Below, one piece after another: positions 23,051-32,462 of a stretch of 64,000 nt of DNA. Origin of the DNA: Sandaracinus amylolyticus (GTDB lineage Bacteria; Myxococcota_A; Polyangia; Polyangiales; Sandaracinaceae); NCBI RefSeq assembly GCF_021631985.1, contig NZ_CP070225.1, positions 868,001 to 932,000 of the forward strand, written 5' to 3'. The translations under genes were made by a program, and so were the position numbers. The notes beneath the pieces were generated by a model. The model was not told where the DNA came from. It was given only the letters and a program-made list of their open reading frames with translations, and did no database searches. Positions within the stretch are counted from its first letter, which is position 1; each line of letters begins with the position of its first letter.

Positions 23051-23434
23051 ATGGGGTTGCGCGTGGTGGTGGTGGCGAAGGCGGGGGCGCTTCGTGATCG
23101 CGTGTGCGACGCGTTGCAGGCCCGCGGCGTCGAGACCTGTGGGGATCTCGACGCCGCGATGGCGAGCGGGCCGATCGATGCCGTGATCGCGGAGCTCGAT
23201 CCGAGCCCACGCAAGAGCGGGCTCGGTATCCTGCTCGCGGCGAGCGAGCGCGCGCCACGCGCGCGACGTGTGCTCCTCGTCGAGGGGCGCGCGTCGATCG
23301 CGGACGCCGCGTTCGCGTCGGGTGTCGCGGACCGGGTCCTCCTCGGGTACGTGCCGCCGCGCATCGAGGCGATCGCGGAGTGGCTCACGAGCACCTGCGA
23401 GCACGGACCCCGACGCATCCCGGCGTTGTCGTGA
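23051..23434 (+). CDS. Pseudo-receiver domain protein
   Basis: A 127-residue protein with the alternating strand/helix pattern of a REC domain but altered active-site residues. Strand 1 reads VVVVAKAG in place of the acidic pair, and the phosphoacceptor position in DAVIAEL appears to be Glu48 rather than Asp, a natural phosphomimic. The final Lys region is also lost. It probably acts as a constitutive or phosphorylation-independent partner. The ATG at 23051 is the only good start. It lies between two better conserved receivers. Confidence 0.65.
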   Translation: MGLRVVVVAKAGALRDRVCDALQARGVETCGDLDAAMASGPIDAVIAELDPSPRKSGLGILLAASERAPRARRVLLVEGRASIADAAFASGVADRVLLGYVPPRIEAIAEWLTSTCEHGPRRIPALS

Positions 23435-23504
23435 TCACCCCGGTCGGCAACGCCATGCTCGGGTCGTTGTGCTGCGATCGCGCGGACCTACCTCGGCAGG
23501 CGCG

Positions 23505-24014
23505 ATGTCGACTCCACGCAGTCGTCCGGAATTGCGCGCCGTGACGCCGCCCGAGGACGAGGTCGAGCTGAAGACGCAGCGCGCGCGTCTGCCCCGTGCC
23601 CGCTCCACCACGCTTCCACGGACGCCCGCCTGCGCGACGGTGTCCGACGTCCGCGTGCTGATCGTCGACGACCACGACGACACGCGCCGCATGTTCGTCG
23701 AGTACCTCGCATGGCACGGCGCGCTGACGCTCGAGGCGAGCAGCGTCGCCGAGGCGATCGTCGTGCTGGAGCGCGAGCTCGTGCACGTCGTCGTGACCGA
23801 CGTCGCGATGCCGCGCGAGGACGGCTACGCGCTGCTGGCGCGCATGGACGCGCGCCCGGGTTGGGCGAGCATCCCGCGCATCGTCGTGTCGGGGCACAGC
23901 TCGGTGCTCGAGGCATCGGAGCGCGCGCCGCGCGCGACGTACCTGAAGAAGCCCGTCGATCTCGAGCGACTGCTCGAGGCGATCGCGACCTCCGCCGTGC
24001 GCGCCGAGCGCTAG
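23505..24014 (+). CDS. Stand-alone response-regulator receiver
   Basis: A 169-residue protein with a basic, poorly conserved N-terminal 45 residues and a canonical REC domain: VLIVDDHDD (acid pocket), VVVTDVAMP (phospho-Asp), IVVSGHSS (switch Ser) and YLKKPVD (Lys). The ATG at 23505 is assumed; a GTG at 23640 just before the REC domain is an alternative that would give a standard single-domain protein of about 124 residues. The gene ends four bases before a hairpin element that may be its terminator. Confidence 0.8.
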   Translation: MSTPRSRPELRAVTPPEDEVELKTQRARLPRARSTTLPRTPACATVSDVRVLIVDDHDDTRRMFVEYLAWHGALTLEASSVAEAIVVLERELVHVVVTDVAMPREDGYALLARMDARPGWASIPRIVVSGHSSVLEASERAPRATYLKKPVDLERLLEAIATSAVRAER

Positions 24015-24017
24015 TAT

Positions 24018-24123
24018 CTCTGCCCGGAACTTCGTTCCGGGTTTCTCCTAGTACTGCCGTCCGGCCGTTCGTTCCGGGCTGAACATCGATCCCGGAACGA
24101 ACATCCGGGCAGCAGTACTAGGC
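24018..24123. repeat. Two-hairpin intergenic element, copy 1
   Basis: Hairpin 1 is CCCGGAAC-TTC-GTTCCGGG (24023-24041) followed by TTTCT. Hairpin 2 has 31-nt arms (24048-24078 and 24091-24121) that pair at 27 positions around the 12-nt loop CTGAACATCGAT. The element lies between convergent genes, and its right arm contains the stop codon of the minus-strand gene. A second copy is at 32355-32462. The stem sequences of the two copies differ, yet each remains self-complementary. Confidence 0.85.
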
Positions 24124-24402
24124 CCGGCGCGCCGTCGCGGGATCGCTCGACTGACGCTCGGCCGCGACCACGAGCTCTCGCGCGCGGTCGAGCGCGGCCG
24201 CCCACGACTCGCGCGCGTACGCGTCGCGCGCCCGCTTCACCGACTCCCCGAGCGCCGCGACCATCTCGCGCGCAGCGTTCCGACGGTGCGCCCAGCCCCG
24301 CGGTGCGCTCCAGGGGACGTTCGCCGCGCCGCGCAGCATCGCTGCGATCCGCTCGTACTCGCGCGCCCAGGCCCCGTCGTCGATGCGCACCACTTCGGGC
24401 AT
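24118..24402 (-). CDS. Small hypothetical protein
   Basis: A 94-residue, helix-rich soluble protein beginning Met-Pro-Glu-Val-Val-Arg-Ile and rich in Arg, Ala and Glu. No family is recognised. The ATG at 24402 has only a weak GGGG upstream; the frame is open much further but that extension overlaps the divergent sigma gene. Its TAG stop is inside the right arm of the two-hairpin element. It faces the sigma-factor gene across 178 bp that contain paired dyads, so the two may be co-regulated. Confidence 0.5.
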   Translation of the reverse strand: MPEVVRIDDGAWAREYERIAAMLRGAANVPWSAPRGWAHRRNAAREMVAALGESVKRARDAYARESWAAALDRARELVVAAERQSSDPATARRA

Positions 24403-24430
24403 CTCGTCCCCGTGCTCGCCAGTGACAAGC

Positions 24431-24479
24431 GCGCAACCGCTGCGCGCACCCCCTCCGCCTCCGCGCAACCGCTGCGCGC
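24431..24479. promoter_or_regulatory. Two identical 17-bp dyads between divergent genes
   Basis: GCGCAACCGCTGCGCGC occurs at 24431-24447 and again at 24463-24479, 32 bp apart (three helical turns). Each copy is itself an inverted repeat (GCGCA and TGCGC). They lie about 100 bp before the sigma-factor start and 30-75 bp before the small divergent gene, a suitable place for a dimeric regulator. Confidence 0.55.
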
Positions 24480-24580
24480 GAATGGTCGTCGAGTTGGCAA
24501 AGATGCTGTGATTACGCGCGGTTATGCGTGTGGCACGAGCCCCGCAATGGCGCCTCCTCGCCACCGAGGAGACCCCGACC

Positions 24581-25408
24581 ATGCGCGCCACCACCGACGA
24601 CCTCTCGCTCGCCCAGCTCCGCCGCACCGCCGCCGCGGCCCCGATGCTCGGGGCGGACGTGGAGCAGGAGTACCTGCGTCGCATCCAGGACCACGACGAC
24701 GCACGCGCGCTCCGGGCACTGCTGGACGCGCACCTCCGCCTGGTCGTCGCGACGGCGGCGCGCTTCGCGCGCTCGGGGGTGTCGGCCGCGGAGCTGGTCG
24801 CCGAGGGGAACCTCGGGCTCGTGGAGGCGGCGCGCCGCTTCGATCCCGAGAAGGGCACGCGCTTCTCGACGTACGCGGCCTGGTGGGTGCGCGCGCGGAT
24901 CAGCCGCTTCGCGATGGGCAATCGCCGCATCGTCGCGGCGCCCTCGACCCGCAACGCGCGCAAGCTCCTCGCGGGGATGCGCAGCGTCGAGCGCAAGCTG
25001 CAGCAGGCGAGCGGCGAGCGCCCTTCGCGCGAGATGATCGCGGCGGTGACCGGCACGTCGGCGGAGGACGTCGCGATGGTCGAGAGCGCGCTCTCGGCGC
25101 GCGACGTCTCGGTGGGGCCGACCGAGGAGGACGGCAGCTCGGTCGAGCTCGGCGCGAACGATCCGTCGCCCGAGCAGGCGATCGCCGACGCCGAGGAATG
25201 CGAACGCCGCGAGCGCATCGTGGCCCTCGCGCTCGCGCAGCTCGATCGTCGCGAGCGCGAGGTGGTGCAGCGGCGGATCCTCGAGGAGGACGGCGAGACC
25301 CTCGCGGAGATCGGGCGGATGCTCGGCCTCTCGCGCGAGCGTGTGCGGCAGATCGAGGCGCGCGCGAAGCGGAAGCTGCGCGCCGTGCTGGTGGCCGAGG
25401 TCGCGTGA
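24581..25408 (+). CDS. RpoH-like sigma-70 family factor
   Basis: A 275-residue alternative sigma factor. Region 2 (LRLVVATAARFA, then AEGNLGLVEAARRFDPEKG and FSTYAAWWVRARISRF) matches the core-binding and -10-recognition segments. Region 3 (VESALSARDVSVG) resembles the RpoH heat-shock group. Region 4 ends with the HTH LAEIGRMLGLSRERVRQIE, which reads the -35 box. The ATG at 24581 has GAGGAG at 24566-24571 and is preferred over an ATG at 24524. Its stop overlaps the start of the next gene (TGATG), so sigma factor and sigma-54-type regulator are translationally coupled. Confidence 0.88.
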   Translation: MRATTDDLSLAQLRRTAAAAPMLGADVEQEYLRRIQDHDDARALRALLDAHLRLVVATAARFARSGVSAAELVAEGNLGLVEAARRFDPEKGTRFSTYAAWWVRARISRFAMGNRRIVAAPSTRNARKLLAGMRSVERKLQQASGERPSREMIAAVTGTSAEDVAMVESALSARDVSVGPTEEDGSSVELGANDPSPEQAIADAEECERRERIVALALAQLDRREREVVQRRILEEDGETLAEIGRMLGLSRERVRQIEARAKRKLRAVLVAEVA

Positions 25409-32342: not shown

Positions 32343-32354
32343 GAATGCAGCGTA

Positions 32355-32462
32355 GTCGCTGCCCGGAGCTGCGCTCCGGGTTTCTGCTCGCAGCGCCGCG
32401 CGGATGTCGGTTCCGGGCTGAACTACGATCCCGGAGCCGACATCCGCGCAGCGCTGCTCGCG
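32355..32462. repeat. Two-hairpin intergenic element, copy 2
   Basis: Hairpin 1 is CCCGGAGC-TGC-GCTCCGGG (32362-32380), then TTTCT. Hairpin 2 has 28-nt arms (32390-32417, 32430-32457) matching at 26 positions plus one G-T, around the 12-nt loop CTGAACTACGAT. Compared with the copy at 24018 the loop differs at two bases, hairpin 1 shows a paired A-T to G-C change, and the outer stem is unrelated in sequence but still paired. This copy lies between divergent starts, not convergent ends. Confidence 0.85.

Follow-up and report, generated by a model that had tools for sequence, protein, structure and literature searches.

The window, the whole 64,000-nt stretch of Sandaracinus amylolyticus DNA analysed here, holds two copies of a dispersed two-hairpin element, both found where an earlier note had placed them but with slightly wider true limits (24011-24122 and about 32352-32461; Table 1). 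The genes on either side of copy 1 are convergent, a plus-strand response-regulator gene (ORF 23268-24014) and a minus-strand gene ending at 24118, and those beside copy 2 are divergent, both as described before. What had been missed is that CTAG stands at both ends of copy 1 and holds the stop codons of both neighbours, the TAG within the left CTAG being the stop of the response-regulator gene. Hairpin 1, the TTTCT spacer and the 12-nt loop are indeed common to the two copies, and when as many as 3 mismatches are tolerated the shared motifs have 2 matches each in the window, compared to 0.01 and 0.00 expected. The RNA folding energies of copies 1 and 2 are -69.1 and -80.5 kcal/mol (z of -8.6 to -10.3 against shuffles), an equally good fold occurring in 0 of 200 shuffles.

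Table 1. Coordinates of the two element copies in the window and of their parts.
Feature	Position	Strand	Basis
Element copy 1, complete, 112 nt	24011..24122	+	Sequence, fold, clean empty site in the sister genome G001
Copy 1, left terminal CTAG, target site	24011..24014	+	TTAG at the G001 empty site
Copy 1, hairpin 1 (half-unit A) with 9-bp stem and 3-nt loop	24022..24042	+	Fold; 97% of cells paired (12 copies)
Copy 1, TTTCT spacer	24042..24046	+	Identity 0.94 (7 own-genome copies)
Copy 1, hairpin 2, REPIN-like pair of inverted half-units	24047..24122	+	Arms 24047-24078 and 24091-24122
Copy 1, conserved 12-nt loop CTGAACATCGAT	24079..24090	+	Identity 0.93 in own-genome copies, 0.84 over 12 copies
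Copy 1, right terminal CTAG, element-encoded	24118..24121	+	Gives the minus-strand TAG stop of the convergent gene, ORF 24118-25218 (-)
Element copy 2, degenerate ends	32352..32461	+	Sequence, fold; G001 empty, GTAG CAGC there
Copy 2, left tetranucleotide GTAG	32352..32355	+	Same as the G001 empty-site GTAG
Copy 2, hairpin 1	32361..32381	+	Fold
Copy 2, loop CTGAACTACGAT	32418..32429	+	Between arms 32390-32417 and 32430-32457

The element unit reads CTAG-TACCTC-hairpin 1-TTTCTC-CTAGTAC...-loop-...GTACTAG, with three related half-units of ~31 nt, one as hairpin 1 and one in each arm of hairpin 2, the latter two being inverted around the loop (in copy 1 the arms form an inverted repeat, 88% complementary) and most copies having the near-symmetric ends CTAGTAC...GTACTAG. 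To evaluate covariation, 12 full copies, taken from three genomes of the Sandaracinaceae, were aligned; the alignment comprises 41 pairs, with 86.7% of the cells paired. The count of covarying pairs, which the earlier note had proposed, came to 17 with two-sided changes compared to 9.3 ± 1.6 in shuffles, and the cells with two-sided changes to 43 compared to 14.6, neither number being reached in any of 500 shuffles; the covariation moreover far exceeds that of structures slid by 1-3 columns. The aligned copies bear out that the sequence of stem 2 differs between copies with pairing kept (two-sided changes in 16 of the 32 pairs of hairpin 2), and they confirm the paired A-T to G-C change reported for hairpin 1 (columns 20/26: AU 7, GC 4, GU 1). 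Covariation is accompanied by a preserved loop, its identity still 0.84 over the 12 copies. Own-genome copies have conserved TTTCT (identity 0.94), loop (0.93) and hairpin 1 (0.90) sequences; identity is lower in the outer stem of hairpin 2, at 0.78, and in the left link, at 0.48. Shortened forms consist of one hairpin with loop (L023), have lost the loop and part of the arms (L020), or retain half-unit A only (L031, L038). Two half-elements of the host genome (L040, L071) adjoin another repeat, GGAGGGTCTGTCC...GACCCTCC...GCCGGAGTGAATC, which suggests mosaics.

In the 10.96 Mb of the host genome, BLAST and the covariance model detected about ten copies that are full or nearly so, and fragments in roughly equal number. 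The covariance-model search, likewise advocated beforehand, retrieved further copies from the host and from two relatives, several in Sandaracinaceae bacterium SSF7 and three or so in a genome of the same genus (G001), so that copies are clearly not few. Counting any model match at E <= 0.01, weak ones included, 6 of 145 genomes of the order are represented, and plasmid and phage records contained no element match above threshold. A loop-pattern scan of the genome contigs returned 16 stretches, three of them in SSF7; those elsewhere look like chance.

A protein search served to find the orthologous loci of G001, whose sequences were then compared; the flanks are ~90% identical. Clean empty sites with precise junctions were obtained for nine host copies (window copies 1 and 2, L016, L017, L018, L019, L020, L023 and L038), the L021 site is nearly clean, and in the reverse case the G001 copy L045 is missing from the host; copies with ambiguous junctions (L027, L030 and the SSF7 copy L044) were left out of the clean count. 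The nine empty sites, together with the absence of L045 from the host, imply that the element moved after the host and its sister species split, and judged from these sequence comparisons it is mobile DNA, recently inserted. The tetranucleotides at the empty sites are TTAG (twice), TCAG (twice), TGAG, GTAG, CTAC, CTAT and CTCG, and the comparisons show precise insertion at a tetranucleotide of NYAG/CTAG-like sequence, in many cases a stop codon, with the neighbouring frames staying terminated. In three copies the left tetranucleotide is that of the empty site (TCAG in L018 and L019, GTAG in copy 2); right ends are CTAG, as in L018 and L019, or a close variant of it. Having the target on the left and the element's own CTAG-like sequence on the right fits the prediction of one-sided HUH insertion. 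A 4-nt target duplication finds no support at the compared junctions; a 2-nt (AG) duplication made by another enzyme may be an alternative.

Stop codons figure prominently among the insertion sites. Neighbouring genes end in TAG within the terminal tetranucleotide at L015, L018, L020, L022, L023, L027, L030, L031 and L038, and TAG makes up only 7 of the 40 stops called in the window. CTAG itself occurs 6 times in the window compared to 159 expected from base composition (~26-fold depleted), with 3 of the 6 sitting in copy 1; stop codons of the TAG type naturally offer a store of CTAG-like sites. At the G001 empty site of copy 1, GCGTTAGGCG, the TAG stop of the plus-strand gene overlaps the TAA stop of the minus-strand gene, and in the host the convergent genes have been pushed apart, each with a TAG of its own, one per side of the element.

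Based on the collective evidence, the element is probably a REPIN-like composite, a short non-autonomous mobile palindrome moved in trans by a Y1 (HUH) transposase of the RAYT/TnpA-REP type. To proceed, the reaction would require the element to fold as hairpins on single-stranded DNA and the hairpins to be recognised by a trans-acting Y1 tyrosine transposase of that kind; cleavage would occur on the left after the target tetranucleotide and on the right after the element's own CTAG, and joining would then take place without 4-nt target duplication, like in IS200/IS605 and presumably in REPINs. TnpA-REP is known to cut single-stranded REP at an adjoining CT (PMC8266576). Like REPINs and BIMEs (PMC3116915), the element is non-coding, extragenic and dispersed, its inverted half-unit doublet forms a long hairpin, it has apparently been moved in trans, and decayed singlets and deletion forms exist beside it (L031, L038, L020, L023). 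Unlike them, it has a third half-unit (hairpin 1) ahead of the doublet and a conserved 12-nt loop, and it numbers ~10-20 copies, not hundreds, with no RAYT gene adjoining a copy. RAYT genes are described as always REP-flanked (PMC2817692); because this feature is lacking here, we file the element as REPIN-like, not as REPIN.

There exist further analogies with GTAG-REPs, which often give TAG stops to flanking ORFs (PMC3733652). The element shares with them the combination of a tetranucleotide with a GC-rich palindrome and the supply of the neighbours' TAG stops by its termini (PMC3733652, PMC2817692), and a similar palindrome is that of the Pseudomonas mendocina REP GTAGCCCGGATGCAATCCGGG, a GTAG-REP. 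A REP-type GTAG/GTGG head immediately preceding the palindrome is absent; CTAG for the most part, or TCAG or GTAG, stands instead, usually 6 nt from hairpin 1. The tetranucleotide varies with the target site and is therefore no fixed head, unlike in GTAG-REPs. Non-autonomous IS200/IS605 derivatives resemble the element in their subterminal hairpins and perhaps in insertion 3' of a tetranucleotide with no 4-nt duplication, and differ from it in that its right hairpin reaches the very end and the host has no IS200/IS605 TnpA as detected by PF01797.

Testing for the RAYT-type link raised by the earlier note was worthwhile: RAYT-like genes are present in the genome, but none adjoins any copy. The host has six diverged, paralogous RAYT-like Y1 transposase genes (L199, L202, L206, L209, L212, L215), and G001 also has six, as detected with a profile built from RAYT-like proteins of relatives. 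The proteins have the HEH motif and the Tyr of Y-x-x-x-NP, and the one compared with NCBIfam REP_Tyr_transpos gave 1.3e-13 and 51 bits, which is under the cut-off of 80. A PF01797 search of the host and G001 returned no match; for the host this is a failure of sensitivity, given the six genes found by the relatives' profile. No element lies within 1.5 kb of any of the six host genes, and mobilisation in trans by a RAYT is accordingly something we infer. Several of the RAYT-like genes share another upstream motif, around CGACCCACGTTGnGTTT. In another genome (G004), RAYT-like genes are present and the element is absent. This, the distance of the element from the RAYT-like genes, the score under the cut-off, a copy number that is low for a REP and the varied tetranucleotides of the empty sites weigh against the REPIN-like, RAYT-mobilised reading.

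Regarding the nature of the element, the earlier note had spoken of a structured RNA or DNA. A dispersed structured element with conserved loop and pairing is what we find, yet the RNA part of that claim gives way to mobile DNA in view of the empty sister sites. One could suppose that function, as a conserved structured RNA, an attenuator or a bidirectional terminator, is what has kept the element and that its dispersal is only apparent. This idea draws on the very stable hairpins, the conserved loop, the TTTCT after hairpin 1 and the many copies at gene 3' ends; we regard it as very improbable. Orthologous sites in the sister genome are empty, copy 2 and L016 lie between divergent genes, an intrinsic terminator scan calls neither window copy, and no Rfam family reaches its gathering score (the sub-threshold matches are microRNA precursors, expected of any long hairpin), so that RNA or terminator as the primary nature is unsupported. 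The earlier view that the element is not simply a terminator was correct: it is more than that, some copies lying between divergent genes, and a secondary terminator role after insertion is possible. Nor is stem covariation alone a sign of RNA, since wobbles are not enriched on the plus strand (4 G-T compared to 24 A-C cells in hairpin 2) and selection for a DNA hairpin or templated repair can also keep long palindromes paired. The same asymmetry of 24 to 4 cells was considered as a sign of a minus-strand RNA and is not relied on, the independent events being few.

Other machinery might also have moved this mobile DNA. Families of the IS630, IS5 and IS481 type are known to target CTAG and TA, and a MITE moved via terminal inverted repeats by a DDE transposase of such a kind would explain the near-symmetric, inverted ends with CTAG or a CTAG-like sequence on each side. 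We consider this unlikely, because a TCAG target goes with unequal tetranucleotides on the two sides: L018 and L019 have the empty-site TCAG on the left but end in CTAG on the right, which suits duplication of neither CTAG nor TA. Moreover, the BLAST and covariance-model matches include no autonomous copy with the same ends, PF01797 being the only transposase family surveyed. Still less probable, in our judgement, is a CTAG-recognising site-specific recombinase, a retro-type (RNA-mediated) route, or one CTAG-directed system shared by several hairpin families. It would accommodate two observations. At the G001 site of host copy L022 (G001:C1:6400287-6400404), there is a hairpin segment bounded by CTAG and unrelated to the element (CTAGCAGCCCGTCGAAC...GTTCGACGGGCTG...CTAG), and SSF7 has a second CTAG-bounded palindromic family (L062, L054, L246; CTAGAGCACCGATTC...GATCGGTGCTCTAG with CTAGTCTGTGTTTTC inside), two cases of which adjoin copies of the studied element. 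Against it, no candidate enzyme was found, and what occupies the G001 site may simply be intergenic sequence native to it that contains a terminator. A scan of CTAG...CTAG spacing gave chance pairs for the most part.

The REPIN-like composite moved by a RAYT-type transposase is the reading for which we count the recurrence of its left module with other right halves. A module NYAR-(6 nt)-TGCCGGAnnTTCGnTCCGGG with different right halves is seen in G018 (L046, L056, L067) and G031 (L047, L057, L061, L066), repeats that belong to two other families of the order. Tentatively, several unrelated hairpin families of the Polyangiales could share one left-end module and one CTAG-directed, HUH-type integration system that prefers the overlapping stops of convergent genes and separates the genes without protein change.

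Lastly, the way in which REP/REPIN-type palindromes move is a question that precise pairs of filled and empty sites help to decide. Here, two species of the same genus provide at least nine such pairs, in which both the target and the ends of the element can be read, in a phylum for which a literature search turned up no report. The family also shows the overlapping stops of convergent genes to be a harmless niche for insertion.
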